Positions 1,041-56,760 of a DNA stretch of 56,760 nucleotides are shown one piece after another. The stretch comes from a virus. A program made the position numbers and the translations under genes. The DNA is taken from positions 1 through 56,760 of the IMG/VR virus record IMGVR_UViG_3300044691_000555; one strand, written 5' to 3'. Numbering within the stretch: position 1 is the stretch's first letter; every line of letters begins with the position of its first letter. Under the pieces are notes generated by a model. That model saw nothing but the letters and a program-made list of their open reading frames with translations. It made no database searches and was not told where the DNA came from.

Positions 1041-1724
1041 CTATATCTTTTCGATCTGATCCAGCGACAACTCAACCGGGGTCTGACGACCGAAGATGTC
1101 GACAAGTAGGTGTACGCGGTCTGATTCGTCAATGTCTTCGATCGAAACAATCCCCGCTTTCGTCCCATCCATCCATTTCGGCACTTCAATGACCGTCCCG
1201 CCGAAGGAAGCGAACGGCCCGTCCGACACCCTGACCTGCTCACCAACGAGATATGCAAATTGCGTGATCTTGGTGACCCCCGGCACGGCGCCGTCGACCT
1301 CAAGGCCCTGAATTTCAGCGATCATTTTCCACGGCACCTCGACCGGCAGATTGTTGGCGCAGACCAGCCCACGAATGTGCGCCATCTTGAAAATCTCCCG
1401 CCATCGGTCGCCTGCATCGAGATAGTCGATGAACGCATAACCAGGGAAAAACGGCTCGACCTTTTCGCGCATCGGTTTGAACGCCGATCGGCGCTGCGAG
1501 TGCGATAGCTTGCTGCGCGGCACTGGCGTGAAGATGCGCATCAGCGGACGATAGAGTTTGATGCTCTGGCGATCGAGAAAATCGACCGTTAGGCTGTCGA
1601 TCCGGTCGCTAATCTGCACCAAATTCCAGATGTGCTCCGCAGGCTTTGACGCATCGACCTTCAGTGTCGGTTCGACGTAGCCGACAACATCGTTTTTCTG
1701 AGCATTCACATAGGATTTTTTCAT
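1041..1724 (-). CDS. NusG/RfaH-like transcription antitermination protein
   Basis: 227 residues. An NGN-like domain spans roughly residues 30-140 and includes the family signature FFPGYAFI (92-99). A KOW domain spans about 158-227 with VRVSDGPFASFGG and the C-terminal IFGRQTPVEL typical of NusG/RfaH. Such proteins bind the RNA polymerase clamp and promote processive transcription. The start at 1724 is firm: GGAGGGACGGA sits immediately upstream and the ATG overlaps the stop of the replication gene (ATGA). It is the last gene of the early operon and sits before a strong terminator, so a switch to late transcription is a reasonable inference. Confidence 0.9.
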   Translation of the reverse strand: MKKSYVNAQKNDVVGYVEPTLKVDASKPAEHIWNLVQISDRIDSLTVDFLDRQSIKLYRPLMRIFTPVPRSKLSHSQRRSAFKPMREKVEPFFPGYAFIDYLDAGDRWREIFKMAHIRGLVCANNLPVEVPWKMIAEIQGLEVDGAVPGVTKITQFAYLVGEQVRVSDGPFASFGGTVIEVPKWMDGTKAGIVSIEDIDESDRVHLLVDIFGRQTPVELSLDQIEKI

Positions 1725-3076
1725 TCCGTCCCTCCAGTCGTCGGCGATATCGTTCCATCCTTCCGTGGCGGCCATGGAATCGGCACTGGCAAGCCCTGCT
1801 CTGAGCGCCGCATCCGGAAATCCGCATGCGATGGCGACAATCCGTGCACGGCCGGATCGAACGGCTCCAGCCAGCGCTTGCGTGGTTCGGCCCATAGCCC
1901 GGTCCATGCGTGCAATCTTGCGCGCCAGGCGTTGAACGCGTTGCTATCCGTTGGCGCCGTCGGCCAATTGCCGATGTCATCAGTGGCAAAGCGCGCCATC
2001 GCCGCAAGATCAGCATCGATCGGAATCGCGCGCCACAGACCACGCCCTCGCTGCGGATCGTCGATCAGCCTCGGTGGCGGCAGATCGAGAATGCGATAGA
2101 CCACCGTCAGCGCCGCGGTTTCCGCTTCGGTAATCCAGACCGGCTCGCGTGCCTTTTCCGGCAGCCTGGCCTGCGGGAAATTGTCGAAGATGCGGTCTTT
2201 CAGGAAGCGCTCCGGCCGAACCGGTGCCGGTTTTGGTTTCGTGGCGGCCAGCTTTTTGGCGTATTCCGGCGACGCCGCCGCGGCCAGCGCTTGTTCCCGC
2301 GGCGGCATCGCAGCGAAAACCGGCAACACCTTGAGCCATGCCCACCGCTCGCGGTCCGGATAGTTCGATTTGAAATAGGCGAAGTGCTCCGGTTCCTGCT
2401 GGCCTTCCGTTTCCTGATCATCGTGATGATCCAAACGCTCCCCGGAGGGGAGTTGAGGGGAGAATTCAGGTTCAGGTTCAGAGATTAGACCCTTCCCGCA
2501 GTGGGAGGGCTGCGGTACCGCTGCGGTAGGGCTGGCCGAATTCAGCCCTTGCTGGTGGCCAGGGCTAATCGGCTGGCTGGCGGGATTTAGCCCTATCTGG
2601 CTGGCAGGGCTAAACGAGGTTTCCGCATCGTCGGCGCCGGCGCGGTCCGGATTTAGCCCTTGCTGGTGGCCAGGGCTATCGTCGTCGGCCGCGACACTCC
2701 GACCGAGCGTGCGCGCCTCGATATCGTCTTCGTCCGCCTCGATCTGCAGCTTGATCAGGTCGCTGGTGCGTTTGCCCTTGCCGTCGCCGTTGCGGCGGCC
2801 CTTCTCGTCGATCCATTGCGGGAACCGGACGATGACGCCGACCTCCTCGAGCCAGACCAGCCGCCGCCGCACGGTTTGCTCCGACAGTTCGGTGTCCTGC
2901 GCCAGCTGCGGAATGCCGACGAAGCAATAGCCGTCGCCGTCGACATAGAGCGTCAGCATGCTCAGAATCAATTTGGCCTGTGCGTTGTGAAGCCGCAGAT
3001 TGCGCGCCCAGGCATGCGCTTCGTCGGCGGCGACCCGCCGTTTCCGGCGCCGGTCGCTTGCAGCGGTGGTCGTCAT
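1721..3076 (-). CDS. Phage replication initiator-like protein (winged helix, gpO/DnaD type)
   Basis: 451 residues from MTTTAASDRRRKRR. Residues about 10-110 look like a helix-turn-helix (LAQDTELSEQTVRRRLVWLEEVGVI), as in phage replication proteins that open the origin and load host helicase. The middle is low-complexity and contains repeated PGHQQGLN peptides encoded by hairpin repeats (2541-2678). The C-terminal part is rich in Pro/Trp/Arg. The start codon ATG 3074-3076 lies after TTGGAA. The stop overlaps the NusG-like start. The initiator role is inferred from family style and the internal repeats, as in lambda O where the origin lies inside the gene. Confidence 0.7.
   Translation of the reverse strand: MTTTAASDRRRKRRVAADEAHAWARNLRLHNAQAKLILSMLTLYVDGDGYCFVGIPQLAQDTELSEQTVRRRLVWLEEVGVIVRFPQWIDEKGRRNGDGKGKRTSDLIKLQIEADEDDIEARTLGRSVAADDDSPGHQQGLNPDRAGADDAETSFSPASQIGLNPASQPISPGHQQGLNSASPTAAVPQPSHCGKGLISEPEPEFSPQLPSGERLDHHDDQETEGQQEPEHFAYFKSNYPDRERWAWLKVLPVFAAMPPREQALAAAASPEYAKKLAATKPKPAPVRPERFLKDRIFDNFPQARLPEKAREPVWITEAETAALTVVYRILDLPPPRLIDDPQRGRGLWRAIPIDADLAAMARFATDDIGNWPTAPTDSNAFNAWRARLHAWTGLWAEPRKRWLEPFDPAVHGLSPSHADFRMRRSEQGLPVPIPWPPRKDGTISPTTGGTE
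2541..2678. repeat. Three hairpin iterons inside the replication gene, candidate origin
   Basis: Three copies of an inverted-repeat unit with arms AGCCCT/AGGGCT: 2544-2566, 2586-2614 (arms extended to TTTAGCCCT/AGGGCTAAA) and 2652-2678. Spacers of about 11 nt are similar (TGCTGGTGGCC in copies 1 and 3). Copies are 45 and 66 bases apart, multiples of three because they are coding. Iterons within an initiator gene are known for lambdoid origins; origin function here is inference. Confidence 0.5.
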
Positions 3077-3138
3077 TTCCAATGGTCTCGTGATGCTCGG
3101 GGAAAACTGGACGCGGAACGCAACGGGCACAAAAGGTT

Positions 3139-3492
3139 CTATTCGGCGGCCTCGCTCGCCTTTGGCAGCGCCCGACAGCGGGCGATCTGTTCGAGTTTGT
3201 GCCGGCCACGCGTCACGCGCTCGGCGTCGCCGCTGCCGATATCGAGCTTGGCCATGTGCTCGACAGGGCCGTATTTGTCGGTCAGCACCGCGCCGTATTT
3301 GCGCGCCAGATGCTTCTTGCCGAGGCCGATATCGAAATGCACCCACGACGCCTTGGGCGGCTGCTGCAGCCATTTCTGCTGCAGCCCGATGCGCCGGGCC
3401 ATCGCCAGCAGTTCGTCGAGCGTATCGGCCCACATGTGGCGCATCGTCATGTGACGGAACTTGTGCCTGACGTCGTCGACATAGACCGTCAT
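3139..3492 (-). CDS. DUF4031 family protein
   Basis: 117 residues starting MTVYVDDVRHKFRHM, followed by HMWADTLDELLAMARRIGL and WVHFDIGLGKKHLA. These are the conserved blocks of the small DUF4031 family common in phages and bacteria. Its biochemical role is not established. Its start overlaps the stop of the adenine methyltransferase (3489). It lies between the DNA modification genes and the replication gene. Confidence 0.8.
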   Translation of the reverse strand: MTVYVDDVRHKFRHMTMRHMWADTLDELLAMARRIGLQQKWLQQPPKASWVHFDIGLGKKHLARKYGAVLTDKYGPVEHMAKLDIGSGDAERVTRGRHKLEQIARCRALPKASEAAE

Positions 3493-4367
3493 TCAGCGGC
3501 CCCTTCCATCAGCGTGTGGAAGTTGCGCTTGTCGCGATCGAGAGCTGCTGCAGCCGCCGGATTGATCCACAGCACTTCGGTGCGCGGCCGCGCGCCATCG
3601 GCCAGCGCCGCGAATTCGATGCGCCGCCAGTCGTGCAAGGCGTCGTCGTAGAGCGGGTGGGCGTAGCCGGACAGCACCACCATGCCGATCAGACCCCGGA
3701 GCGTCTCCAACAGCCTGACGTGCCCCCCCCCGTCGAGTTCGTGCTTATAGGCGGACTTGCCGCCCTTGAACATCGAACGGGTGTCGTGGACGTAGGGCGG
3801 GTCGACATAATGCAGCGACGTCGGCGCATCGTGGCGGGTCAGCACGATCAGCGCGTCGCGATGCTCGATCACGACGCCGCGCATGCGCTCGATGATCGCG
3901 CCATAGGCGTCCGGCAGATTCTGCCAGTCCTGCGCCGGCGTGGTGCCGCTGCGGTTCGAGTTCGAGCGGAAGCCCGTCGATTGATGCCCGCGTTGCGTCG
4001 CCGAATGGGCGTTGCTGCCAAACCCCATGAACGAGCGGATCACCAGCCGCCGCGCGCGCTCGACCGGATCGTCGGCGGGCTCATAGGCGATCTCGAATTC
4101 GCGCCTGGCGAACGGCGTCAGCCGCAGCAGTTCGATCAATCGGCAGGCCTGCGCCGGATCCTGCATCACCCGGAACAGCCCGACGATGTCGTCGTCAAGA
4201 TCGTTGTAGATCTCGGCATGGCTGCGCGGCTTGTGCAGCAGCACGCCGGCGCCACCGCCGAACGCCTCGGTGTAGAGCCGATGTGCCGGCAGGTATGGAA
4301 TGATCTGGCGCGACATCAGGAATTTGCCGCCGTGCCAGCGGACTGGTGGGCGTGTGATCGCGTTCAT
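3489..4367 (-). CDS. D12-class DNA adenine N6-methyltransferase (Dam-like)
   Basis: 292 residues. The N-terminal VRWHGGK and FGGGAG (about 36-41) form the AdoMet-binding motif, and the catalytic DPPY is at about 189-192, the order of the D12 (Dam/DpnM) class. It would methylate adenine N6 in a short site, which cannot be read from sequence. The start ATG overlaps the RT stop (4364). Its position directly after the DGR reverse transcriptase makes it co-transcribed with it. With no restriction endonuclease nearby, self-protection from host restriction is likely. Confidence 0.93.
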   Translation of the reverse strand: MNAITRPPVRWHGGKFLMSRQIIPYLPAHRLYTEAFGGGAGVLLHKPRSHAEIYNDLDDDIVGLFRVMQDPAQACRLIELLRLTPFARREFEIAYEPADDPVERARRLVIRSFMGFGSNAHSATQRGHQSTGFRSNSNRSGTTPAQDWQNLPDAYGAIIERMRGVVIEHRDALIVLTRHDAPTSLHYVDPPYVHDTRSMFKGGKSAYKHELDGGGHVRLLETLRGLIGMVVLSGYAHPLYDDALHDWRRIEFAALADGARPRTEVLWINPAAAAALDRDKRNFHTLMEGAAE

Positions 4368-5368
4368 GCCGAAGTCCCTTTCTTCGGCACGCTGATTCCG
4401 AGGCTCCGGATCAGGTTGGTGCTATCGGCCCAGCGCGCGTGACCGAGCCATGCTGCCAGGAATTTTCGCAACCGCTCGTAATCGCCGGCGGCCCGGTACG
4501 CCGCGATTTTGCGCCGCGCCCGCGTCACGCTGTCCTTGCGCAGCAGCTTGTGGCTGGCCCAGATCCGGTAGCCGAGGAAATTGACGCCGCGCGAGACCGG
4601 CGCGATCTGCCATTTCGAGACCCGCAGCCCGAGTTGCTGGCGCGAGAATGCCTCGATCGCTTCCTTGACCCGCCGCAGATGCTCGGAACTGCGGCCGAGC
4701 ACCACGATGTCGTCCATGTAGCGGTACCAGACCCGCTCGCCGAGGGTCTGTTGCAGATAGCGGTCGAGCGTGGCGCCAGCATAGAGATTGGCGAAAATCT
4801 GCGACGTCAGGCTGCCGATCGGCAGGCCGATGCCGGCGCGCGGCACCATCGCTTCGATCAGTTTTAGCGTGGCGCGGCAGGAAATCTTGGCCTCGATCAG
4901 CCGCCACAGCACCTTGCGCTCGATCGAGGCGAAATAGGCCGAGAAATCCGTCTTGAGGAAGTAGAGCGGGCCATCGCGGGACTCGCGCCGCAACTCGCTC
5001 TGCAGCAGCACCACGCCGGCATGCGTCCCCTTGCCCGGACGGCAGGCGAATGCCCGCGGCAGCAGCGCGCGGTCGAAGATCGGCGCGATCACCAGGCACA
5101 GCGCCTGCTGCGCGATGCGGTCGCGGAACGGCAGCGCCGAGATCAGCCGCAGCTTTGGATCGAACACGTGGAACTGGTGCGGCGGACCGGCAACGTAGCG
5201 GCCGTCTGCGACGTCCCGGGCGAGATCGGCAAGGTTGAGCGCCGAAAATTCCTTGAATTCGAGATAGCCCGGCGTCAGCCGCTTGCCGGCGGCGGTCAGG
5301 CGCAGTGCCGCTTCCATGTTGCGCGGCGAGGTGATGTTGCCGATCAGATTGCGGTAGCGCTTTGTCAT
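4364..5368 (-). CDS. DGR-type reverse transcriptase
   Basis: 334 residues. RT palm motifs are visible in order: RPGKGTHAG (about 110-117), FLKTDFSAYFASI (137-149), IGSLTSQ (184-190), the catalytic YMDD (217-220) and a following FLGYRIW. The [ILV]GSxxSQ form of motif 4 is characteristic of DGR reverse transcriptases. It would copy the TR-containing RNA with adenine infidelity to make cDNA that rewrites the VRs. It lies 184 bases after the TR. Its ATG overlaps the TR-containing frame by 4 nt (ATGA), preceded by a GGGGGCG purine stretch. The next gene overlaps its stop. Confidence 0.97.
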   Translation of the reverse strand: MTKRYRNLIGNITSPRNMEAALRLTAAGKRLTPGYLEFKEFSALNLADLARDVADGRYVAGPPHQFHVFDPKLRLISALPFRDRIAQQALCLVIAPIFDRALLPRAFACRPGKGTHAGVVLLQSELRRESRDGPLYFLKTDFSAYFASIERKVLWRLIEAKISCRATLKLIEAMVPRAGIGLPIGSLTSQIFANLYAGATLDRYLQQTLGERVWYRYMDDIVVLGRSSEHLRRVKEAIEAFSRQQLGLRVSKWQIAPVSRGVNFLGYRIWASHKLLRKDSVTRARRKIAAYRAAGDYERLRKFLAAWLGHARWADSTNLIRSLGISVPKKGTSA

Positions 5369-5691
5369 GACGCCCCCGCTGAAAAACCGGCCGCGGGTCT
5401 CGACAGCCGCAAATTGATGCGACCGCTACGCCCCGCTCTGCCGGACCGTGAAGTGTGTTCGCCGAAGCAGGACAGTCGGGCTGACCACCAGCCTTGGCTG
5501 AGTGTGATCCGCCGGCGCGACCGTGATCGTTGCCGAGCAGCAATCAGCATAAGGTCGTCACTGCGGCCGCGGGCGCCGAAGTTCTCGTTCGAATTGCCGG
5601 GGAAGTTGTACGCGACGTTCGCCTGGCGCGAGCCCGCGTCGTCGTCGTTCCACCAGTTCCCGCCGAACAAGGAAGCGCGCGGCTGCATCAT
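5365..5691 (-). CDS. Open frame containing the DGR template repeat, possibly translated
   Basis: 108 codons beginning ATGATG inside the end of avd and stopping TGA inside the RT start, with 4-nt overlap at both ends. The first third reads the TR in the same frame as the target proteins (PRASLFGGNWWNDDDAG, then Asn-rich). The rest is unlike the targets and rich in Arg/Ser. GGGGAA lies upstream of the ATG. It may be translated only to couple avd and RT translation, or be a remnant of a duplicated target 3' end, or be coincidental. No function is claimed. Confidence 0.4.
   Translation of the reverse strand: MMQPRASLFGGNWWNDDDAGSRQANVAYNFPGNSNENFGARGRSDDLMLIAARQRSRSRRRITLSQGWWSARLSCFGEHTSRSGRAGRSGRINLRLSRPAAGFSAGAS
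5552..5683 (-). repeat. DGR template repeat (TR)
   Basis: 132 bp homologous to VR1 (offset 588) and VR2 (offset 12166). In the coding orientation it holds 23 adenines, clustered as AAC/GAC-type codons. All differences to the VRs occur at these adenines except one at 5556, in the 3' edge where IMH* and IMH are expected to differ. A G/C-only 16-mer (5563-5578) forms the 3' part, as in the initiation-of-mutagenic-homing element of BPP-1. No downstream hairpin like that of the VRs is present. Confidence 0.97.
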
Positions 5692-6098
5692 TTCCCCGCC
5701 TGCCCCATCGGACGCGCGGACGCGTCAGATGCTTTCAGCTTCCTTTGCCATGCGCCGAGCATTTTTCCGGGCTCCGCCAGTAGCGCCAAGGCGGCGACAT
5801 GCTGTTTCGGGCCGAGGATTTTGATGTCGCCGCGACTGAGGAAGCGCAGGAATGACCGCAAGGTCGCGAACTCGGCATCGACGGCGTAGAGCCGCGACAC
5901 CTGCCTCGATTTTGCGGCATGGTAGAGGCCGCCGATCGGCCCGAACAGCGCCGCCAGCACGGCATCCCGGAGGACACCATGCCGGCGCGGCGCGTTCTGC
6001 AGGATCGGATAGAGATAGTTCACAAAGGCCTCGTATCGTTCCACGATCGCCAGGGCGTCGGTTGCTGAGTTTTCGTCCCTGACGATCTGAGTTTGCAT
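5688..6098 (-). CDS. avd: Avd-like accessory variability determinant
   Basis: 136 residues, predicted all-helical and basic: IVERYEAFVNYLYPILQNAPRRHG, then helices through LRSFLRFLSRG and HVAALALLAEPGKMLGAW. Size, four-helix pattern and position between target 1 and the TR match Avd, the pentameric helical-bundle protein that binds the RT and template RNA in DGRs. Individual Avd sequences diverge, so the call rests mainly on size, helix content and synteny. The stop lies 5 bases before the TR, and an ATGA overlap joins it to the TR frame. An alternative is an unrelated helical protein, which I consider unlikely. Confidence 0.88.
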   Translation of the reverse strand: MQTQIVRDENSATDALAIVERYEAFVNYLYPILQNAPRRHGVLRDAVLAALFGPIGGLYHAAKSRQVSRLYAVDAEFATLRSFLRFLSRGDIKILGPKQHVAALALLAEPGKMLGAWQRKLKASDASARPMGQAGK

Positions 6099-6107
6099 TG
6101 GCTAACC

Positions 6108-6127
6108 GCCGTCGCTGTCGCGCCGGC
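6108..6127 (-). other. DGR target-1 hairpin downstream of VR1
   Basis: Coding orientation GCCGGCGC-GACA-GCGACGGC: an 8-bp stem with one G.A mismatch and a GACA tetraloop, 12 nt beyond the end of VR1. DNA hairpins just after the VR are known to boost target recognition in BPP-1. The stop codon of target 1 (6127-6129) abuts the stem. A matching structure follows VR2 and not the TR. Confidence 0.85.
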
Positions 6128-7032
6128 TAGACAGGTTGCAGGTGGTCACTGCGGCCGCGGGCGCCGAAGTTCTCGTTCGAATTGCCGGGGAAGTTGTACG
6201 CGACGTCCGCCCGGCGCGAGCCCGCGTCGTCGCCGCCCCACCAGTACCCGCCGAACAAGGAAGCGCGCGGCGTGTCGGGGTCGCCGTCATGGCCCCACAC
6301 CCACAGATTGCCGGTTGCCTGCATCAGGCCGAACTTGCTGGTGCGCGGCGCGTCGAGCCCGGTCCTGACCGGATCATCGCCGATCGCCGTTTTTTCGGTG
6401 ACGCCGAACGCCGCGGCGAAAAACTCCTCGACGCTCAGCAGCCCCTTGCCATGCGCGGCCATCACGGCGGCCGCGGTGGCATAATCGAACCGCTTGTAGG
6501 TCTTGCCGGCGGGATCAAGCGGGCGGTCGTTGCCGTCGGCGATGGTGACGCCGAACTTGCTGGTGCCGTCCTCGGCGCAATTCGACCCGGTCAGATAGAT
6601 GTCGGCCCAGAATTTCCGGCCCAGCATCTCGACCAGCGCCATGCCGCGCGGATCCGGACACGCCGGGCGGAAATTCAGGTCCCACAGCGAGAACGGATTG
6701 ATTGCGGGAATCTCGTCGCCGCCGGCCCGCGCGGCCGCATTGCCGCCGGGCGCAAAGTGGAAGCCGCCGATATAGTCGGTTTCTTCCGGCGAACGCGTCG
6801 ACCGGAATGCGACGGGCGCGCCGCCGAGCGCCACGACATAGTCGGCGCCGGGCACCAGGCCCTGCTGCGGCAGCATCACCGGGGTATCTTCCGTCAGCGA
6901 CCGCTCGCCGAATGACGTTCCGGCCTTGACCAGCAGCGTATCGCGACCAGTCAGCTTCAGGACCGGCGAATGCACATCCATCTTGGTCAGGATCGATATC
7001 GGCCGATCTTCAAGTCTTGCTTGCTTGTTCAT
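6127..7032 (-). CDS. DGR target protein 1 (C-type lectin/FGE-fold, variable C-terminus)
   Basis: 301 residues. An N-terminal region of about 75 residues precedes a formylglycine-generating-enzyme/C-type-lectin style domain (IGGFHF, NPFSLWDLNFRPACPDPRGM, SKFGLMQATGNLWVWGHDG), the fold in which DGR variable residues are displayed on the surface. The C-terminal 40 or so residues are VR1 (GGYWWGGDDAGSRRADVAYNFPGNSNENFGARGRSDHL). No signal peptide is seen. GGAGA lies upstream of the ATG. It likely acts as a binding or tropism protein, but it is not in the structural gene block. It is paralogous to the protein at 17660-18610. Confidence 0.95.
   Translation of the reverse strand: MNKQARLEDRPISILTKMDVHSPVLKLTGRDTLLVKAGTSFGERSLTEDTPVMLPQQGLVPGADYVVALGGAPVAFRSTRSPEETDYIGGFHFAPGGNAAARAGGDEIPAINPFSLWDLNFRPACPDPRGMALVEMLGRKFWADIYLTGSNCAEDGTSKFGVTIADGNDRPLDPAGKTYKRFDYATAAAVMAAHGKGLLSVEEFFAAAFGVTEKTAIGDDPVRTGLDAPRTSKFGLMQATGNLWVWGHDGDPDTPRASLFGGYWWGGDDAGSRRADVAYNFPGNSNENFGARGRSDHLQPV
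6140..6271 (-). repeat. DGR variable repeat 1 (VR1)
   Basis: 132 bp aligned base for base to the TR at 5552-5683. Six substitutions lie in the variable part, all where the coding-strand TR has A: four A-to-G and one A-to-G/one A-to-T pair by codon (on the + strand five T-to-C and one T-to-A). The 3' edge differs by one base from the TR (6144 G versus 5556 C on the + strand). The G/C-only 16-mer at 6151-6166 is unchanged. Confidence 0.97.
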
Positions 7033-7083: not shown

Positions 7084-7827
7084 TCAGGCAGGCACCCACT
7101 GATCTCGGCCGACGCTGACGCCGGCGCCGAGCTGCAGCACCTGGCGTACCTTGGCGCGGGCGTTTTCCTTGCCGCGCGCCTTCGGGTGATCCTTGATCAG
7201 CTGCCAGATGTCGGCGACGCGGACCGGGCCCTCCATCGCGCGGATGGTTTCGCCGACCAGTTGCGCCCACGTCACATCGGCCAGGGCTTCGACCAGCACG
7301 AACCGCGGAAAAATCAGCGGCACGAACTGGCCGTTGAGCCCGCATGCGGCCAGCACGTCGGCATCGCCGTCGCCATAGGCGCACAGCACGGTCGGCGCGC
7401 CGCTATTGGCTGCGGCGCGATCGCCGCTCGGATAATGGAAATTTAGCCGGCCGCGCAGAAACAGCAGCGCATGCGCCCGTTCCCAGACGTGCCGGAAGAA
7501 CGCGTCGGTCTCGGTTCGCGCAAAGATGATGGTGGTGCCGCAACCATGCGACGCCAGCTTTTCCAGCCAGCGGCCGATGATGCCGTTGGTGTAGGGCGGA
7601 TTCAGCCAGACGCGCCCGAACCACGGCAACGCCAGCCCGTCATCGGCCTTGGTGTAGCGCGCCTTTGCCGTCGGCCAGGGCTGCACGTCCGGCGTCGCCG
7701 GGTCGAGATCGAAACTGGCGGCGCCGCCGAGTGCCGCCAGCACAGCCGGCGGCGTCAGCCATTCGACCGTCTGCGGCCGGTTGGAATGGTGACCGCCGAT
7801 GCCGGCGAAGCGTTGGGCCCGGTTCAT
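7084..7827 (-). CDS. Phage DNA N-6-adenine methyltransferase
   Basis: 247 residues with VEWLTPPAVLAALG, FDLDPAT and the catalytic NPPY (in VWLNPPYTN), the hallmarks of the phage-encoded 'DNA N-6-adenine-methyltransferase' family. The C-terminal third, after about residue 170, contains a separate helical region ending KVRQVLQLGAGVSVGRDQWVPA. It modifies adenine in phage DNA, probably against restriction. It lies directly upstream of DGR target 1 (about 50 bp) and overlaps the small gene at 7824. Recognition site unknown. Confidence 0.9.
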   Translation of the reverse strand: MNRAQRFAGIGGHHSNRPQTVEWLTPPAVLAALGGAASFDLDPATPDVQPWPTAKARYTKADDGLALPWFGRVWLNPPYTNGIIGRWLEKLASHGCGTTIIFARTETDAFFRHVWERAHALLFLRGRLNFHYPSGDRAAANSGAPTVLCAYGDGDADVLAACGLNGQFVPLIFPRFVLVEALADVTWAQLVGETIRAMEGPVRVADIWQLIKDHPKARGKENARAKVRQVLQLGAGVSVGRDQWVPA

Positions 7828-8030: not shown

Positions 8031-8281
8031 CGGCCGAACCTCCGGAAGGTGTTCGAGACCAGAGCCACCGCGTCGAAACCGAGCAGGATCACGACAGCGA
8101 TGACGGCGCCGCCGAAAGCACCGATCACGGTGACGACGCGCACGGCGGCGAGGTTGAGCGCTTTTCCCGGCCCCATTCCGCCGCGACGATCGCACCAGCG
8201 CTGGCCGGTCATGATCGCCAGCACGGCGCCGATGATGCCGGCTGCGACGAACAGTGCGGCGATATCTGCCTTGGTCATCAT
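8027..8281 (-). CDS. Small two-helix membrane protein, hypothetical
   Basis: 84 residues with two hydrophobic stretches: ADIAALFVAAGIIGAVLAIM near the N-terminus and VIGAFGGAVIAVVILLGF in the second half, separated by a charged loop. It starts with ATGATGA at the end of the cytosine methyltransferase gene; either Met is possible. Function unknown. Confidence 0.65.
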   Translation of the reverse strand: MMTKADIAALFVAAGIIGAVLAIMTGQRWCDRRGGMGPGKALNLAAVRVVTVIGAFGGAVIAVVILLGFDAVALVSNTFRRFGR

Positions 8282-10461
8282 TCGGCAGCCTCCAGCGTGA
8301 ATTCGAGATCGTCGGGGAGCTCGATCTCGCGCGGCGCGAAATTGGCGCGCACCAGCGCTTCCGCCAACGGCGGCGGCACGCTGTTGCCGCACTTCGAGAC
8401 CTGCTGGGTTTTGGTGATGGCGACGCGGTCGCCTTTCTTCCAGCCCATATCTTCGTCGTCGGCGATCGCGATGCCTTCGGCGATGATGTAGCTTTCAGGA
8501 AAGCCTTGGGCGCGGAACAATTCGCGCGGGATCAGCATCCGCATCCCGATATCGTTGATGACGTAGGGCTCGCCCTCGATCATCACGGTGACGATGGCCG
8601 CGCGATCTTTCGTGGTGACCGTATGCAGCGGATCGTCCGGCGTTTGACCGTCGCCAGTGCCGTAATATTTCTGCAGGAACGCCGCCGACAATTGCGTCTT
8701 GCCCTGCCCGTCCGCCATCACGGTCCGCGCCGGCTCGTCCAGCGACGACCCGACCCCGGTCCCGAACTGCCGCAGCAAATTCGCCGCGACCAGGCCCTGA
8801 TGCGAGCCCGTATGCAGGATGGTCGAGACCGGCGCATCGACCGGACGGCCGGGGTTGATCCCATCGCCGCGCGAGATGTTGTGCTGCGCCAGGAACGCCG
8901 CAACCAGGTGCATATGCGCGCCGCCGGCCGTGACCGTATGCGCCGGCTGATCGGCGCCCTGGAACGGCTTGCCTGCGTTGCGCATCGTCATCAGGTGCGG
9001 CGCGACGATGCCGATCGGCGCCGCCCCGCCCGGGCGCTTGAGGTAGGAATTCGAGGTCACCGTCGGTGCCGGGTGTTCGAGCGACGCGCCGACCTGGCCG
9101 CCGTGAAACTTGGTCAGATGCGGCGCGATCAGCGCATGCCGGTTTTCAGTCGTCTGCGTCCGCAACGGGTCTTCGACGCTGGCGCCGCGGCCGCTTTCGC
9201 CTTCACCTTCGCCGTAATAGGCGGACAGCACGGGCGCGATCAGCGCATGCTTGACCCCGCCGGCGACGGTCGTGCCGAGCGGCTTGTCGAGGCCGGGCAC
9301 ACGCGGTTCCTGCCCCTCGCGCTCGCCGTATCCGGTCTGGATCAGCGTCGGCACGATGATCTGGTTCTGATCCTTCGCCGATGCGGTAATGGTATGCATC
9401 GGACCGGCGGCCGCCCGGATGCTGCCACCTTGCTGCGCGGCGCTGACGAACGGCGTGACGACGACGCTATCGGCCTTCGCGGTCAACGTTTGCGCCGGCA
9501 GATCGATGCCGCGCGGTTCGGTCTGGCCCATTCGCCCGCCGACACCGGCCACGAACGGCACGGCCAGCGCCTTCTCGCCGCGATGTGCGCCGGTAATGGT
9601 CGCGATCGGATCGTCGATCGACTCGGTTCGATCGCCGCCCTGATGCGTCAGATTGACGATGAACGGCTTGGCCGCATCCAGCACGTAGCGCTTCACGCCC
9701 TTGGCGATCCGCGCCATCGTCGCCGGCTGCAGCGGCCGGACCGCCCGCAGTCCGAATCTTTCCATGATCTCCGCGGCAGTGTCGAAGATCGAGGGGCACG
9801 GCAGCGACCAGTCGATGATTTCGGCGGCCGTGCGCCATGGCAGTTTATTGCCGGCGGCAACGTCGGGATCCTTCGGGCCGCCATGCGTCGGTTTCGGCCA
9901 CACGATCGGCAGGCCATCTCTCCTCGCAATCAGGAACAGCCGCTTGCGGATGGTCGGCGCGCCATAGTCGCAGGCGCGCAATTCGCGATGCTCGACCCTG
10001 TAGCCGAGCCGCTTCAGTTCATTGACCCAGCGCTTGAAGGTCGCGCCCTTGCGCTCCGGGCACGGGCGGCCATCTATGGCCAGCGGTCCCCACGTCTGGA
10101 ATTCCTCGACGTTCTCCAGGATGATGACGCGCGGTTTGACCTGGCGCGCCCAGCGCACCACCACCCAGGCGAGGTCGCGAATGCTCTTCTCGACCGGCTT
10201 GCCGCCCTTGGCCTTGGAAAAGTGCTTGCAGTCCGGCGAGGCCCACAGCAGCCCGACCGGACGGCCATCACAGACCTGCAGCGGATCCACCTTCCAGATT
10301 GAATGCGGCAGATGCAGCGTGTCCGGATGGTTGGCCGCATGCATCGCCAGCGCAACCGCATCATGGTTGATCGCGATGTCGGGCGAGATGCCGAGCGCCC
10401 GTTCGATGCCCGTCGAGGCGCCGCCGCCGCCCGCAAAGCTGTCGACGATCAATTCCCTCAT
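8278..10461 (-). CDS. DNA (cytosine-5) methyltransferase with central repeats
   Basis: 727 residues. Motif I SFAGGGGASTGIE (8-20), catalytic-cysteine motif SPDCKHFSK (C78), ENVEEF (116-121) and a QxRxR-like APTIRKRLFLIARR (about 168-181) define the Dcm class. Between about residues 270 and 640 are some ten imperfect repeats of a '(L/V)(D/E)xPxxTVTAxxxHxLVAPxL' pattern in place of an ordinary target recognition domain. Motif IX/X-like MRMLIPRELFRAQGFP is near the C-terminus. It is likely a protective modification enzyme with unusual or multiple specificity; no partner endonuclease is seen. Its stop overlaps the membrane protein gene. Confidence 0.93.
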   Translation of the reverse strand: MRELIVDSFAGGGGASTGIERALGISPDIAINHDAVALAMHAANHPDTLHLPHSIWKVDPLQVCDGRPVGLLWASPDCKHFSKAKGGKPVEKSIRDLAWVVVRWARQVKPRVIILENVEEFQTWGPLAIDGRPCPERKGATFKRWVNELKRLGYRVEHRELRACDYGAPTIRKRLFLIARRDGLPIVWPKPTHGGPKDPDVAAGNKLPWRTAAEIIDWSLPCPSIFDTAAEIMERFGLRAVRPLQPATMARIAKGVKRYVLDAAKPFIVNLTHQGGDRTESIDDPIATITGAHRGEKALAVPFVAGVGGRMGQTEPRGIDLPAQTLTAKADSVVVTPFVSAAQQGGSIRAAAGPMHTITASAKDQNQIIVPTLIQTGYGEREGQEPRVPGLDKPLGTTVAGGVKHALIAPVLSAYYGEGEGESGRGASVEDPLRTQTTENRHALIAPHLTKFHGGQVGASLEHPAPTVTSNSYLKRPGGAAPIGIVAPHLMTMRNAGKPFQGADQPAHTVTAGGAHMHLVAAFLAQHNISRGDGINPGRPVDAPVSTILHTGSHQGLVAANLLRQFGTGVGSSLDEPARTVMADGQGKTQLSAAFLQKYYGTGDGQTPDDPLHTVTTKDRAAIVTVMIEGEPYVINDIGMRMLIPRELFRAQGFPESYIIAEGIAIADDEDMGWKKGDRVAITKTQQVSKCGNSVPPPLAEALVRANFAPREIELPDDLEFTLEAAE

Positions 10462-14601: not shown

Positions 14602-14978
14602 CAGGTCCCCACTTTCGTGCCGTCGTCCCAGATGAACTCGCCATCCGCGCCGACCGGGAAATGCGAACCGCAGCCGCAGCAGAACGTGCCGGAATAGAAT
14701 TTCGGGTCGCGGGCATAGGTTTCGGCGAGCGATTGCCCCATCGTGGTCGCGACGCCGCATTTTTGGTGGACGTAGGTCCGCTGCACCGGCCGCACGAAAC
14801 CACGCGCCCTCTCGGCATCGCTGAGCACGACATAACCCTTCTGCTGGCCATCGGGCCGCAGCTCGTCATGGCCAGGCGTCACCGGCGAGCCGTCGGTCAG
14901 CGTGCGCTGGGTCCGATCGACCGCAGGGGTGGCGCCGACCGCGCGGGCGATGCCGTCGATGATGGTTTTGACGGTCAT
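14601..14978 (-). CDS. Conserved phage zinc-binding hypothetical protein
   Basis: 125 residues: GYVVLSDAERARGFVRPVQRTYVH then CGVATTMGQSLAETYARDPKFYSGTFCCGCGSHFPV and a C-terminal FIWDDGTKVGT. This pattern, with Cys pairs around a conserved TMGxxLAETYARxPxFY block, is widespread in phages; function unknown. Overlaps both neighbours. Confidence 0.7.
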   Translation of the reverse strand: MTVKTIIDGIARAVGATPAVDRTQRTLTDGSPVTPGHDELRPDGQQKGYVVLSDAERARGFVRPVQRTYVHQKCGVATTMGQSLAETYARDPKFYSGTFCCGCGSHFPVGADGEFIWDDGTKVGT

Positions 14979-16663
14979 GCCGGCACCTGTGCGTCAGACG
15001 CCGGACGTTCCGTGCGCCTCAAGAACTCTGGAATATCGAGCGGGTGCGGAGGCGCGGCAGCGTCAGCGACGCCGTTCGCTGACGGCCGACGCTTCGCGTC
15101 GCCCTGCTCGGGCATGGTTCCTACGTGCCGACCGTCGTCAGCCGTTCCGCAACCGGTGCTGGGGGCCTCGCGAGCCGTACCAGACGCCTCCCTGGGTATT
15201 TCGAAATGATCGCAGCAGACGCATTCGATCGCCGCGATGAAAAGAGGTGCCGGCGCAGGGAGCAAACCAACTGCGCCGGCGTCCGATGTCCGGCCATCGG
15301 CAACCCTACCGGCAGGCGGTTCTATACCTGGCGGCTCCTTTGGAACCGCACGCGCGCCTGCTTTCGCTTGGGAATGGTCTTTTCTTTGAACGGGATGCTG
15401 GGTGAACCGCTCGACGTCGTCTGCCTTCGTCAGCGCATCGCGGCAGCCTGGCGGAATCCAGCACGGCGCCTGCGGTTCGAGGTACTTGTCCCATACCAGC
15501 CAGACATAGGCGGTCGCGGTGTCACCTTGCGGATTCCAGCGACCCTTGCACAGCGGCACGCGCTCGACGAAAAACGCGATCTTGGTCGGCGGCCTGTCGC
15601 GGTAGATGTTTTCGTAGCGGCCGAGGGTTTCCAGGCAGCGCATTTGCACGAACATCGCGACGCCATATTGGGCGCGCGCCAAGGCCTTGATCATAAAGCT
15701 TTCGATTTTTTCGCCGAACGGCGGGTTGGTGATGATCCAGTCGGCATAGATGTCGCCGCTGTCCGGCCTGAGAAAATCGACCGGTTCGCGGCGGCTATAG
15801 CCATAGTCGTGGATATCGGTCGCGATCACCTTGCCGAAATATTCCGCCAGCACCTCGGCAATGTGGCCCTCGCCGCAGGCCGGTTCCCACACCGAATATT
15901 TTTCGATGTCGTTTTCCATCAGGTGCGGCAGCAGCACATGCTCGACCAGCGCCCGCGTCGCCCATGGCGGCGTCGGAAAGAAGTCGAGACTGTCGTCAGG
16001 CTCCAGCCTTGACGCCATGGTGGCGCGGTTACCGGACGGCAGCGCCTTTTCCAGTGCCGCCGGCTGCTCGGCTTCCGGCAGCCTGGCGATCTTTTCCGCG
16101 GCAGAGAGCGATAGGTCGCGTCGTTCGACTGCAGCGTTCAGCGGCTCGATACCTGCCTGTGCCACCAATTTGCCGGACGCCGCGGTGCGCTCACTGACAC
16201 TCAATGCTTGTGCGGCTTCCGCAGTCGAAACCTTCTGCAAATTTGCAGAAGGTTCGAGATCAGTCCGCTCCCCTTGACGCATATTGGCAAGTCGACCTGC
16301 GACCAATCCCCGCTGGCTGGTGGTCAGGTGCCGCCGCTTTAGGTTCTTCGACAACACCCACGCGAGCGGCTCGCCATCCATCGCCGGATTGAACGCGCAG
16401 AACCAGAGCTGCGGCGGATCGAGCAGTTCAGGTGAAAGAGCGTCGCCGGCCCGATGGCCCCAACCCGGGCCCAAGACTTCGCCTGACTCGGCAAGGTGTT
16501 GAAGTGCCTTGTACCGGTTGCGACCATCGAGGATCTGTCGGTCGATGAGAACGATTCGATCGCGAATGCCATTTTCGCGGATGTCATCGACAAATGCCGT
16601 AAAATCCTCGCCGTCCAGCAACGGAAACAGTTCGGCGTAAGGGTGGGCCGGAAGGTGCGTCAC
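14975..16663 (-). CDS. ParB-like nuclease domain / DNA methyltransferase fusion
   Basis: 562 residues from a GTG that overlaps the upstream stop (GTGA), preceded by GGGGAGGG. A ParB/sulfiredoxin-like N-terminal domain covers about residues 10-60 (AFVDDIRENGIRDRIVLIDRQILDGRNRYKAL). A ParB-type helix-turn-helix region (TSQRGLVAGRLAN ... AQALSVSERTAASGKLV) follows. An AdoMet methyltransferase fold comes next, with EPACGEGH (260-267) and the catalytic NPPF (313-316). The C-terminal 130 residues are low-complexity. Such fusions are known in phages; whether the protein segregates, cuts or methylates DNA is open, but NPPF favours adenine N6 methylation. Confidence 0.85.
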   Translation of the reverse strand: MTHLPAHPYAELFPLLDGEDFTAFVDDIRENGIRDRIVLIDRQILDGRNRYKALQHLAESGEVLGPGWGHRAGDALSPELLDPPQLWFCAFNPAMDGEPLAWVLSKNLKRRHLTTSQRGLVAGRLANMRQGERTDLEPSANLQKVSTAEAAQALSVSERTAASGKLVAQAGIEPLNAAVERRDLSLSAAEKIARLPEAEQPAALEKALPSGNRATMASRLEPDDSLDFFPTPPWATRALVEHVLLPHLMENDIEKYSVWEPACGEGHIAEVLAEYFGKVIATDIHDYGYSRREPVDFLRPDSGDIYADWIITNPPFGEKIESFMIKALARAQYGVAMFVQMRCLETLGRYENIYRDRPPTKIAFFVERVPLCKGRWNPQGDTATAYVWLVWDKYLEPQAPCWIPPGCRDALTKADDVERFTQHPVQRKDHSQAKAGARAVPKEPPGIEPPAGRVADGRTSDAGAVGLLPAPAPLFIAAIECVCCDHFEIPREASGTAREAPSTGCGTADDGRHVGTMPEQGDAKRRPSANGVADAAAPPHPLDIPEFLRRTERPASDAQVPA

Positions 16664-17091
16664 GCCACGCCCTCCCCGGCCAGCTGCGCAATTTCGCCGC
16701 GGCAGGCCTCGATCCCGACGATGATGCGGTCGAACCGCTTGCCGCGCACAAGCGCCGCGAACGGCGTCGGATCCTGTGACACGCCGCAGGGATCGAACAC
16801 GCGCGCCGAAGGTGACGCGGCATAGAGATGGCGCCAGGTGCTGCGGTTGCCGTCGACCACCACAAAGAACCGGCTCTTCGGCATATCGAGTGCGAGCATC
16901 ACGGCGTCGAGCGTGACGTCGGCGGGCCAGCACAGCAGGCCCAGCGGCGGCGCCGAGGTCGCGGTATTGGCCACGGCGTTGCGCAGGGCGGCGATCTGGC
17001 CGTCGTGATCACGGGCCGGACGCCTCAGGTTCTGCATCAGCGCGGAGCGGCCGCGACCGACCTGGCGATGCTGATGGTTCCAATTGTCCAT
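16660..17091 (-). CDS. Hypothetical protein
   Basis: 143 residues from MDNWNHQHRQVGRGRSALMQNLRRP, with a hydrophobic Rossmann-like central strand pattern (SRFFVVVDGNRSTWRHLY, ACRGEIAQLAGEG). No catalytic motif is recognised. The TGATG overlap with the gene upstream and the GTGA overlap with the ParB/methyltransferase gene place it firmly in the operon. Confidence 0.6.
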   Translation of the reverse strand: MDNWNHQHRQVGRGRSALMQNLRRPARDHDGQIAALRNAVANTATSAPPLGLLCWPADVTLDAVMLALDMPKSRFFVVVDGNRSTWRHLYAASPSARVFDPCGVSQDPTPFAALVRGKRFDRIIVGIEACRGEIAQLAGEGVA

Positions 17092-17339
17092 CAGACGAAC
17101 CCCCGGTCGATCGCCAGCCATTCCGGAATCGTCAGGTTGGCGAGCGGCAGCGTGACGCGGCCGCCCTGCCGGTCGGTGCCCTGCGTGGTCTTGCCGGTCA
17201 GGTGCTTTGAGCCGATCAGCGATTTTGCGATCCAGACCGCGCGCGTGTTGTCGCCGTCGATCGAGACCAGCACCGCGCGGCCCTTCGGCGGGTCGTAATG
17301 CATCGCCACCAGCACTTCGGTCGGGTCCTGCTTGCTCAT
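17091..17339 (-). CDS. Hypothetical protein
   Basis: 82 residues: MSKQDPTEVLVAMHYDPPKGRAVLVSIDGDNTRAVWIAKSLIG. Small beta-rich protein with no recognised family. The start overlaps the upstream stop and the stop overlaps the downstream start. Confidence 0.6.
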   Translation of the reverse strand: MSKQDPTEVLVAMHYDPPKGRAVLVSIDGDNTRAVWIAKSLIGSKHLTGKTTQGTDRQGGRVTLPLANLTIPEWLAIDRGFV

Positions 17340-17659
17340 GACTGCGGCCCGTCGCCGGTCAGCAACCGCAGGTCAGCGGCCGCGGCCTCGCCTGCGGTCT
17401 CCGCCACCATCTCCGCGCGCAGCGACGGCTTGATCGCGAGGCCAGCGCGGATGAAGGCGGCGCCGATCCGCAGCGCCCGCTCCGGCGAAAACCCGACGCG
17501 CACGGCATTGCCGGCCTTGTCCGAGCCGAAGATGCGCACGATCGCCATATCGGGATCGGCGGTCAGCAGCATCTCGCGGGTCAGCAGTTCGCAGGCTTCG
17601 CGGCCGAATTCGGTTTCGGCTGCACCTGGCGTGGCAGATGGGGTGGCGAGGTCGTCCAT
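17336..17659 (-). CDS. Hypothetical protein
   Basis: 107 residues, acidic at the start (MDDLATPSATPGAAETEFGREACELLTREML) then a small alpha/beta part (DMAIVRIFGSDKAGNAVRVGFSPERALRIGAAFIRAGLAI). It follows DGR target 2 immediately (stop of target 2 at 17660, start here at 17659). Function unknown; co-expression with target 2 is expected. Confidence 0.6.
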   Translation of the reverse strand: MDDLATPSATPGAAETEFGREACELLTREMLLTADPDMAIVRIFGSDKAGNAVRVGFSPERALRIGAAFIRAGLAIKPSLRAEMVAETAGEAAAADLRLLTGDGPQS

Positions 17660-18610
17660 CTACAGCGCCCGCGCCCGGACGAGACCGCCGTCGCTGCCGC
17701 GCCGGCGACCAGGTTGCAGGTGGTCACTGCGGCCGCGGGCGCCGAAGTCCTCGTGCGAATCGCCGGGGAAGACGCACGCGACGTACGCCCGGCGCGAGCC
17801 CGCGTCGTCGCCGTACCACCAGTACCCGCCGAACAAGGAAGCGCGCGGCGTGTCGGGGTCGCCGTCATGGCCCCACACCCACAGATTGCCGGTCGCCTGC
17901 ATCAGGCCGAATTTGCTGGTGCGCGGCGCGTCGAGCCCGGTCAGCTTGGGATCGCGTTTGGCAGAACTCTTTTCCGTGACGCCGAAAGCGGCGGCCGGAA
18001 ACTCGTCGAGGCCGAGCAGCCCCTTGCCATGCTGCGCCATCACCGCGGCCGCGGTCGCATAGTCGAACCGCGCGTAAGGCTGACCGGTCGAAGGGTCGAG
18101 CGGACGGTCGTTGCCGTCGGCTATGGTCACGCCGAATTTGCTGGTGCCGTCGAGATGGCAGGTCGCGCCGGTCAGATAGACATCGCACCAGAACTGTCCG
18201 CCGGGCTTTTGCACCAGCGCCATGCCGCGCGGATCGGGGCACGCGGGGCGAAAATTCAGATCCCACAGCGAACACGGATTGATCGCCGGAATGTCATCGC
18301 CGCCGGCGCGCGCGGTGGCGTTGCCGCCAGATGCGAAGTGAAAGCCGCCAATGACGTCGTCGCTCGACGGAACAGCAAAAGCGCGCAACGCCCGCGCCAC
18401 GCCGCCGGATACGACGACGCCATAATCCGCGCCGACAACCAGCGGACTGGCGAACTCGACCGGTGTCTGCTTTGCGAAACGCTGTCCAGCAAAAACGATC
18501 CCGGCCCGGATCGCGATGGTTTCCGCGCCGGTCGCGATCAGCGCCGGCAGATCGGGGTCTTTCTTGATCAAGATCGCGATCGACCCATCCATCTTGGCAT
18601 GCGCGTTCAT
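17660..18610 (-). CDS. DGR target protein 2 (C-type lectin/FGE-fold, variable C-terminus)
   Basis: 316 residues, paralogue of target 1: shared IGGFHF, NPCSLWDLNFRPACPDPRGM, TSKFGVTIADGNDRPLDP and SKFGLMQATGNLWVWGHDG. The C-terminal variable part reads GGYWWYGDDAGSRRAYVACVFPGDSHEDFG, more diverged from the TR than target 1. It lacks target 1's stop and continues through the downstream hairpin with a basic GRRRGSDGGLVRARAL tail. The N-terminal 75 residues differ more between the paralogues. GGAGG lies before the ATG. It is about 11 kb from the DGR core, so it is diversified in trans. Confidence 0.94.
   Translation of the reverse strand: MNAHAKMDGSIAILIKKDPDLPALIATGAETIAIRAGIVFAGQRFAKQTPVEFASPLVVGADYGVVVSGGVARALRAFAVPSSDDVIGGFHFASGGNATARAGGDDIPAINPCSLWDLNFRPACPDPRGMALVQKPGGQFWCDVYLTGATCHLDGTSKFGVTIADGNDRPLDPSTGQPYARFDYATAAAVMAQHGKGLLGLDEFPAAAFGVTEKSSAKRDPKLTGLDAPRTSKFGLMQATGNLWVWGHDGDPDTPRASLFGGYWWYGDDAGSRRAYVACVFPGDSHEDFGARGRSDHLQPGRRRGSDGGLVRARAL
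17687..17706 (-). other. DGR target-2 hairpin downstream of VR2
   Basis: Coding orientation stem GCCGGCGC/GCGACGGC with a GGCA loop, 11 nt beyond VR2; identical stem to the VR1 hairpin. Here it lies inside the target-2 coding frame. Confidence 0.82.
17718..17849 (-). repeat. DGR variable repeat 2 (VR2)
   Basis: 132 bp aligned to the TR without gaps. Eleven substitutions fall within the variable part, every one at a TR adenine (coding strand), including A-to-G, A-to-C and A-to-T changes. The single non-adenine difference is at the 3' IMH edge (17722), shared with VR1. The G/C-only 16-mer at 17729-17744 is unchanged. Confidence 0.96.
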
Positions 18611-18630
18611 AGGTCAGTCCTCCAGGTTGC

Positions 18631-19026
18631 TCATCGGATGTTGCCCTCGAGCGCTTCCAGCCGCCGCGAGGTGTCGGCCTGCTGCTGACGCAGTTTTGCG
18701 ATCTCGCGAACGGCACGGATGTTGTCGGCCCATGGCGATTTGACGGATGCGATCAGCGCTTCATGGACGAGGTCGCCGATATCGCTGCGCAGCAGGGTCG
18801 CCAGCGCCTTGCCGTCGGGCGCGCCCTTGCCGGACAGCCATCGCTCCACCACGCTGACCGAACGGCCCGACCTGTGGGCAACTTCAGCGGCGCAATTTTG
18901 GGAAAAAATCTGCTTCAATTGCAGCGCGGTAGAAGAAAACCACCCGCATGGATGCGGGAATCGACCCTCATCGCTGCGGGTCGCGGTTTTTGACGGGTTC
19001 CGCTGGTGACGTAGGTTCCCGCTCAT
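18631..19026 (-). CDS. Putative helix-turn-helix regulator with coiled-coil C-terminus
   Basis: 131 residues. A central LKQIFSQNCAAEVAHRSGRSVSVVERWLSGKGAPDGKAL block resembles a Cro/C1-type helix-turn-helix. It is followed by a helical coiled-coil tail (ADNIRAVREIAKLRQQQADTSRRLEALEGNIR). It overlaps the Cro-like gene upstream by 4 nt and sits 20 bp before target 2. Could be a CII-like activator or early regulator; inference. Confidence 0.6.
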   Translation of the reverse strand: MSGNLRHQRNPSKTATRSDEGRFPHPCGWFSSTALQLKQIFSQNCAAEVAHRSGRSVSVVERWLSGKGAPDGKALATLLRSDIGDLVHEALIASVKSPWADNIRAVREIAKLRQQQADTSRRLEALEGNIR

Positions 19027-19280
19027 GTGGGCACCTGTTCCGTTTTGCGTTCTTCCATCGCCTTGTCGGCAGCCAACCTCGCGATCAGATCGGCGGTCAC
19101 GCCGCGAATGCCGCGCTTCGTCGCACCCGCGACCGCGTCCGCGACGTATTCCAGCCCGATCCGGTCACGCCTCCGCATCGCCTTCGCCGCGCCGTAGGTT
19201 GCGCCAACGTCGTCAGCGAATTCCTGCAGCCCAGGCCATGCGTCGATGATGTCGCGATGAGAGGAGAAACTGTCGGTCAT
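19023..19280 (-). CDS. Cro-like regulator
   Basis: 85 residues: IIDAWPGLQEFADDVGATYGAAKAMRRRDRIGLEYVADAVAGATKRG, the compact helix-turn-helix layout of phage Cro-type proteins that pair with S24 repressors. First gene of the leftward early operon, divergent from the repressor gene. No Shine-Dalgarno exists because a 13-bp-arm palindrome lies directly against the ATG, so the mRNA may be leaderless. Likely competes with the CI-like repressor for the same operators. Confidence 0.75.
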   Translation of the reverse strand: MTDSFSSHRDIIDAWPGLQEFADDVGATYGAAKAMRRRDRIGLEYVADAVAGATKRGIRGVTADLIARLAADKAMEERKTEQVPT

Positions 19281-19311
19281 GAATCATCGGTACTTTTTGT
19301 ACCGATGATTC
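19281..19311. promoter_or_regulatory. Long palindrome, operator and leftward promoter
   Basis: Perfect inverted repeat with 13-bp arms GAATCATCGGTAC / GTACCGATGATTC around TTTTT. The inner GGTAC-N5-GTACC recurs at 20042 and 20068. Leftward, a TTGACG -35 box (complement of 19311-19316) overlaps its outer edge. The symmetry suits a dimeric CI or Cro. Confidence 0.8.
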
Positions 19312-19330
19312 GTCAAGCGAAAGGTCCAAC

Positions 19331-19353
19331 TTGTACCCGGGATATAGGTACAA
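19331..19353. promoter_or_regulatory. Inverted repeat TTGTACC/GGTACAA upstream of the repressor gene
   Basis: Arms TTGTACC (19331-19337) and GGTACAA (19347-19353) with a 9-nt spacer containing GATATA, just before the repressor ATG at 19362. The arms share the GTACC/GGTAC half-sites with the other operators but in opposite arrangement. Probable second operator or repressor promoter element. Confidence 0.6.
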
Positions 19354-19361
19354 AACGGACC

Positions 19362-19997
19362 ATGAGCGAGGTTTCGGAGCGAATCGCCTTTCTTGGCAAG
19401 CGGATGGGTTGGACAACCCTCTCGCAGGCGGCGGAGGCCTATGGCATCAAATACGAGTCTTTCAAGAAGATCGCGTCCCACAATGCCAGCGATCCGCGCG
19501 GACTGACGGTCGACAACGCCCTAAAGATCGCCCGCTTTCACAAGATTTCGCCCGGCTGGCTGATGTTCAATGAGGGAAGGCCGGGAGGCATCAAGGGGAT
19601 TCCGCTGGAGGGCAAAATCGGCGCCGGCCAGGAGATGATGATCTTCGAAAATCCCGGCAACGAAGAGCCGATCCCCTTTGAAATAGTGGGTGTCGAGGCG
19701 ACGGCGCTGGAGGTCGACGGCGATTCGATGCTTCCGCTCGCCCGCGACGGAGATATCGTGTTCGTCGGACCGTCTCGCAAGGATATCCGGACTTTGGTTG
19801 GCCAGGAATGCGCGGTTCTTTTGGAGGACGGTCGCCGTTTCTTCAAGGTGATCGAAAACGGCTCGGAGAAGGGTCGTTTCGATCTGCGGTCCTACAATGC
19901 AGCACGGATCGAAAACGTTGAGATCCATTCCGCAGGCCCTCTGCTGGCGATCAGGCGAATGTATAAGGACCGAATCGCGAAGCGAAAACGAGGGTAA
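19362..19997 (+). CDS. CI-like repressor with S24 (LexA-type) autocleavage domain
   Basis: 211 residues from MSEVSERIAFLGKRMGW. An N-terminal helix-turn-helix (SQAAEAYGIKYESFKKIAS) is followed by a C-terminal S24 peptidase-like fold. It has a GAG cleavage motif (A88-G89), nucleophile in VDGDSMLP (S122) and general base in FFKVIE (K162), as in CI and LexA. It would keep the prophage silent and be inactivated by RecA after DNA damage. A much longer upstream reading frame is rejected because this start fits the domain edge. It is divergent from the Cro-like gene with operators between and downstream. Confidence 0.92.
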   Translation: MSEVSERIAFLGKRMGWTTLSQAAEAYGIKYESFKKIASHNASDPRGLTVDNALKIARFHKISPGWLMFNEGRPGGIKGIPLEGKIGAGQEMMIFENPGNEEPIPFEIVGVEATALEVDGDSMLPLARDGDIVFVGPSRKDIRTLVGQECAVLLEDGRRFFKVIENGSEKGRFDLRSYNAARIENVEIHSAGPLLAIRRMYKDRIAKRKRG

Positions 19998-56601: not shown

Positions 56602-56760
56602 CCCATTTATGGCCGCGGGGAAAATCGCCCGGGAAGGACCCGTTCGAAGGGCCGACGATTGCCCGAACCGCCCACCGTTCAGGCGCCGAGCACGCGGTAG
56701 AGTTCGTGTGCGATGCGCCCGGGCAGGTCGCGGTCGACCGTGCCGAAGAACGCGGCCTCC
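56602..56760. repeat. Terminal direct repeat, right copy
   Basis: Second copy of bases 1-159, with 7 mismatches in the first 60 bases and identity thereafter. See left copy. Confidence 0.9.
56679..56760 (-). CDS. Partial duplicate of the tail protein Z-like gene (3' end)
   Basis: Reading leftward, the last 82 bases are identical to 78-159 and encode the C-terminal end (RDLPGRIAHELYRVLGA) and stop of the tail protein. It is a fragment because the window ends here. Confidence 0.85.
   Translation of the reverse strand, partial: EAAFFGTVDRDLPGRIAHELYRVLGA

Follow-up and report, generated by a model that had tools for sequence, protein, structure and literature searches.

Can a diversity-generating retroelement (DGR) with a single template repeat (TR) and a single reverse transcriptase (RT) serve a tail protein gene that lies many kilobases from both, and how did the sequence beside the variable repeat (VR) of that gene come to be almost identical to the sequence at the target next to the DGR core? 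Both questions are raised by the window, which is one 56,760-base IMG/VR virus record. The features involved are listed here.

4364..5368, minus strand: DGR reverse transcriptase, 334 aa (RVT_1, E=5e-19; phrog_1423, E=9e-111)
5550..5681, minus strand: TR, the sole template repeat found in the record
5688..6098, minus strand: bAvd accessory protein (PF22296, E=1e-26; phrog_3206)
6108..6127, minus strand: post-VR1 hairpin, loop GACA
6127..7032, minus strand: T1, Mtd-type paralogue adjoining the DGR core, 301 aa (phrog_11262, E=5e-81)
6138..6269, minus strand: VR1, 6 of 23 TR adenines substituted
6270..6365, minus strand: VR1 5' flank, likely the donor-side copy of a conversion patch
17660..18610, minus strand: T2, Mtd-type tail protein, 316 aa, with a C-terminal C-type-lectin domain (phrog_11262, E=9e-79; PF21916 mtd_2nd)
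17687..17706, minus strand: post-VR2 hairpin, 8-nt arms with one mismatch, loop GGCA (GRNA type)
17716..17847, minus strand: VR2, 132-nt variable repeat, 11 of 23 TR adenines substituted
17724..17743, minus strand: VR2 IMH core GGCGCCCGCGGCCGCAGTGA, then CCACCTGCA (TR: CGACCTTAT)
17848..17942, minus strand: VR2 5' flank, probably converted from T1 (2 synonymous differences in ~93 nt)

The record contains a DGR-type RT, a TR adjoining it, VRs with A-only changes, an Avd protein, an IMH/IMH* pair, and GRNA-loop hairpins. The RT was recognized as DGR-type from its sequence by YMDD and IGSLTSQ (GxxxSQ) motifs, and a search of the record for a second RT found none. On the minus strand, the order T1-bAvd-TR-RT is that of BPP-1. 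T1 and T2 are identical at 70% of residues, and T2 is homologous to Mtd, matching the BPP-1 Mtd crystal structures over residues 13-298 (phmmer, E=4e-46), with its VR in the C-terminal lectin domain. A first-pass annotation of this DNA had described the reading frame at 17660-18610 as a remote target that carries VR2, the same G/C-rich IMH core, and the same hairpin. We find the frame to be real and its contents as described, and its remoteness stands as well; the distance of about 11 kb from the RT and TR does not, as 10.6 kb is the separation of T1 and T2, and VR2 lies ~12 kb from the TR and RT.

The alignment of the TR with VR1 (offset 588 bases) and VR2 (offset 12166 bases) is gapless. Over the 132-nt repeat, the only difference from the TR at a base other than A is a G>C change at 5556, which distinguishes IMH* from IMH and is common to VR1 and VR2; a T>G change at 5551 is at the repeat edge. 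The probability that all changes would fall on adenines by chance is 1.6e-5 for VR1 and 4e-10 for VR2. Each VR has private A-only changes relative to the TR, and the nine positions at which VR1 and VR2 differ from each other are all TR adenines. The IMH core GGCGCCCGCGGCCGCAGTGA occurs exactly three times in the record, in the TR, VR1, and VR2. Beyond the VRs, the hairpins are GCCGGCGC-GACA-GCGACGGC after VR1 and GCCGGCGC-GGCA-GCGACGGC after VR2, each with one G.A mismatch. Hairpins with at least 7 of 8 pairs follow 44 of 49 VRs in the family versus 0.7% of shuffled windows, and most stem positions show compensatory changes in the family comparison. Phage DGRs are known to carry a GRNA-loop hairpin 4-34 bp after the VR, and in BPP-1 this hairpin is required while the sequence upstream of the VR is dispensable (PMC3240598).

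T2 has no TR or RT of its own, and VR2 equals the distant TR at non-A sites outside the IMH base. Since the RT, bAvd, and TR adjoin only T1, VR2 must be rewritten in trans. The proposal of trans diversification is thus borne out at the sequence level by the single TR and RT, the private A-only changes, the intact IMH and hairpin, and the like arrangement in relatives. We consider it very probable that T2 is a true second target of the one DGR in this phage and that its ~93 bp 5' flank was separately copied from T1. The RT-bAvd complex would copy the TR transcript into A-mutagenised cDNA, and because VR1 and VR2 share repeat, IMH, and hairpin, this cDNA could home into T2 as well as T1. One template would then diversify two receptor-binding (Mtd-type) proteins, T1 in cis and T2 in trans. 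We infer that the targets are presently active, are expressed, and bind receptors, and both proteins are presumably on the virion. Ten residues are altered in VR2, and eight of them fall, in the alignment, at positions where the five BPP-1 Mtd variants of known structure are not all alike; the VR2 changes thus most likely alter a receptor-contact surface.

The first-pass annotation had also suggested looking for paired targets in related phages. Scans yielded 23 viral loci with T2 as the query and 47 with the RT, and 46 of 48 whole records searched gave matches. Two targets and one TR were found in 14 records, this one included, and in all 14 of these paired records with a comparable TR, the one TR explains both VRs with almost only A changes. 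The gap between paired targets ranges from 43 bases (head-to-tail) to 10.6 kb, and the two targets are on opposite strands in G017 and G009. An exact-pattern scan of viral contigs for near-identical phages gave no match; G010/G011 and G035/G047 are duplicate records with identical VRs. Bacterial relatives are mostly alphaproteobacterial MAGs, including Hyphomicrobiales and Paracoccus, and two of five have two targets. G007 (59.4 kb; L097:8295-9409) has two VR-bearing targets with IMH and a bAvd reduced to a 57-aa piece that is 88% identical; neither a TR nor an RT was found in a search of that record, which has apparently lost its DGR core and kept both targets. G004 has a similar short bAvd remnant. 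The remote second target of G009 (L101:1408-2544) lacks the VR 3' end and IMH, and its frame continues into unrelated sequence.

We then consider the 5' flank. Two synonymous differences had been reported in about 92 bp, and we recover both (AAG/AAA and GCA/GCG, in ~93 nt). T1 and T2 are 0.96 identical in the ~93 nt before the VR versus 0.67 in the gene body, and the highest flank identity between any two different records, duplicates aside, is 0.90. In gene-body trees, T2 groups with G024_t2 and G023_t2 with high bootstrap support (99/98 protein, 100/98 DNA); AU tests on the bodies leave a sisterhood of T1 and T2 unrejected (p 0.066 protein, 0.20 DNA). In the flank tree, T1 and T2 are joined (99/97), and placement of T2 with its own lineage is rejected (p-AU 0.003). 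By these trees, T1 and T2 are old paralogues that have descended separately, and the near-identical flank looks like a gene-conversion patch rather than a homing signal. The T2 flank is 0.96 identical to that of its own T1, 0.85-0.88 to T1-lineage flanks, and 0.76-0.78 to T2-lineage flanks, so T1 is most likely the donor. G024 has a similar patch (0.96) of independent origin. As a run-of-identity scan is partly confounded by overall similarity, we relied on 4-fold sites and trees instead. In separated pairs, 96 of 117 4-fold sites agree in the flank versus 328 of 609 in the body (p=5e-9), and in head-to-tail pairs the counts are 46 of 94 versus 201 of 385; this split was made after the values were seen, and the contrast may partly reflect phylogeny. 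The head-to-tail pairs without flank homogenisation are G022, G035, G037, G044, G018, G020, and G031, a pattern that may itself be phylogenetic.

The flank contains 17 adenines and differs only at two A/G sites, so the mutagenic RT did not make this copy. VR1 and VR2, as noted, differ at nine TR adenines, so at least one of them was rewritten after the flank was shared. We propose that, independently of retrohoming, T2 received the ~93 bp immediately 5' of its VR from T1, most likely through ordinary DNA recombination; the VRs, whose likeness is repeatedly restored from their common TR, would have seeded the exchange. Alternatively, the conversion may have been coupled to retrohoming, with a cDNA anchored at the T2 IMH pairing at its other end with the wrong paralogue, T1, being extended on it, and so bringing T1 flank into T2. 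In favor of such coupling, the patch adjoins the VR at its 5' side, and on the 3' side T2 has retained characters of its own lineage (an 11-nt spacer and a read-through tail). However, ordinary VR-seeded recombination explains the patch position and the T2-lineage 3' side equally, and we regard the coupled route as rather unlikely. If it did operate, the lectin-domain segment adjoining each VR would gradually become alike between the separated targets of a DGR, through one-sided, retroelement-driven conversion.

The nearly twofold difference in changes between VR2 and VR1, which had been read as a hint that VR2 was rewritten more, stands as a count (11 versus 6 of 23) but is not significant (Fisher p=0.22). 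More frequent rewriting of T2, or different selection on it, is an unlikely explanation of this difference. Every homing event restarts from the TR, so the number of changes is no gauge of how many times a VR has been rewritten. Furthermore, 11 of 23 is ordinary for the family, and the outlier is VR1. Among 43 VRs, about half of the adenines are changed in each VR half, while the 3' half of VR1 has 0 of 10 changed where ~5.5 are expected; this is unique in the set, the next-lowest 3' half having 3 of 13 changed, and it explains the gap. The simpler reading is that T1 recently received a homing event that was incomplete or introduced few mutations, and we infer either such an event or selection for the TR sequence there. 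Summed over all VRs, the A substitutions are 315 to G, 144 to T, and 96 to C. Two candidate signs of VR-to-VR copying were set aside. Shared substitutions were unexceptional (three of five doubly changed sites identical in G000; 40 of 87 in other pairs), and the Tyr that both VRs encode at the first variable codon was discounted, as bRT favors AAC to Tyr/Ser changes (PMC12875486).

T2 could instead be a former target, once diversified and now frozen. Leftover remote targets have been described in Treponema (PMC4891356), and orphan targets exist in this family too, as in G007 with its truncated bAvd. However, a long-frozen VR would also gain changes outside adenines, and VR2 shows none, matching the resident TR exactly at non-A sites save the IMH base. 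Its load of A changes is ordinary, and its reading frame, IMH, and hairpin are intact, so we think a frozen T2 very unlikely. It is more improbable still that selection on the DNA or RNA sequence, for instance on a homing element or structured RNA, accounts for the flank identity in place of recombination: the flank does encode a conserved part of the protein, with amino acids conserved across records, but its 4-fold sites agree at only 0.57 on average across records, and head-to-tail pairs do without such identity. The idea that recombination brought VR2 and its flank over from T1 together, and that VR2 was never a homing target, is barely credible. Flank and repeat do form a continuous block with 95% T1/T2 identity, but copying followed by normal mutation would not confine the nine differences to TR adenines or give each VR private A changes.

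The BPP-1 DGR (mtd-VR, avd, TR, brt) has one target, and we found one target match in its record. The present system resembles it in gene order (target-avd-TR-RT), Mtd-type target, bAvd, GC-rich IMH with an IMH* difference, GRNA-loop hairpin after the VR, and A-only changes. Unlike BPP-1, it has a second, diverged Mtd paralogue ~12 kb away near a phage repressor. The arrangement of one TR and two targets occurs repeatedly and has published precedents in other phages. Phage DGRs with two targets include those of the tentaclins (PMC10743442), and remote targets are known from Treponema (PMC4891356), cyanobacteria (PMC7517822), and Thiohalocapsa (PMC10907252), the last with trans diversification of remote targets observed in natural populations. 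All of these share one TR and several C-type-lectin targets, some in trans; however, the tentaclin-phage targets have different topologies, whereas both targets here are Mtd paralogues with a conversion patch, and the Treponema, cyanobacterial, and Thiohalocapsa targets are in bacterial genomes. A study of gut prophages describes phage DGRs with, as here, a second VR in a gene distal from the RT, with methyltransferase genes nearby; unlike the present virus, those are gut prophages, mostly of Bacteroidota, and in the part consulted we found no statement on inter-target conversion (PMC12629997). An incomplete literature search gave no report of gene conversion beside the VRs of paired phage targets.

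These results add a family of Mtd phages in which one DGR diversifies two distinct receptor-binding paralogues, which in some phages are encoded at a distance from each other or in opposite orientations. For reporters in E. coli, the rate of diversification is set by where the target lies and how it is oriented (PMC12875486), and such phages are natural tests of whether this holds here. The conversion patches suggest that recombination between paralogous targets is sustained by their common TR. Surveys limited to the RT neighborhood miss remote targets, according to Roux et al. (PMC8144416).

The surroundings of T2 are as follows. At 17091-19997, the TAG stop of T2 abuts the ATG of a 107-aa gene, and two small genes precede T2 and diverge from the ORF of an S24-peptidase repressor (18948-19997, plus strand). 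This is a likely early operon, and given its position just downstream of these small genes, T2 may be expressed early. Just downstream of this operon is a ParB-like and DNA methyltransferase protein (14975-16933, minus strand), and further methyltransferases are between and around both targets (7084-7827, 8278-10461, and 3489-4367). Three 37-nt repeats with TAGCCCT...AGGGCTA arms (2531-2678) are within the replication-initiator ORF at 1721-3433; they are possible origin iterons and, if so, would fix the direction of replication relative to T1 and T2. The window ends in a direct terminal repeat (1-159 and 56602-56760; 152 of 159 identical, every mismatch in the first 60 bases), which probably reflects overlapping ends of a complete genome, circular or permuted, plus assembly noise. 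Additionally, a 63-nt unit is present in six tandem copies at 42897-43291, in the structural-gene region.
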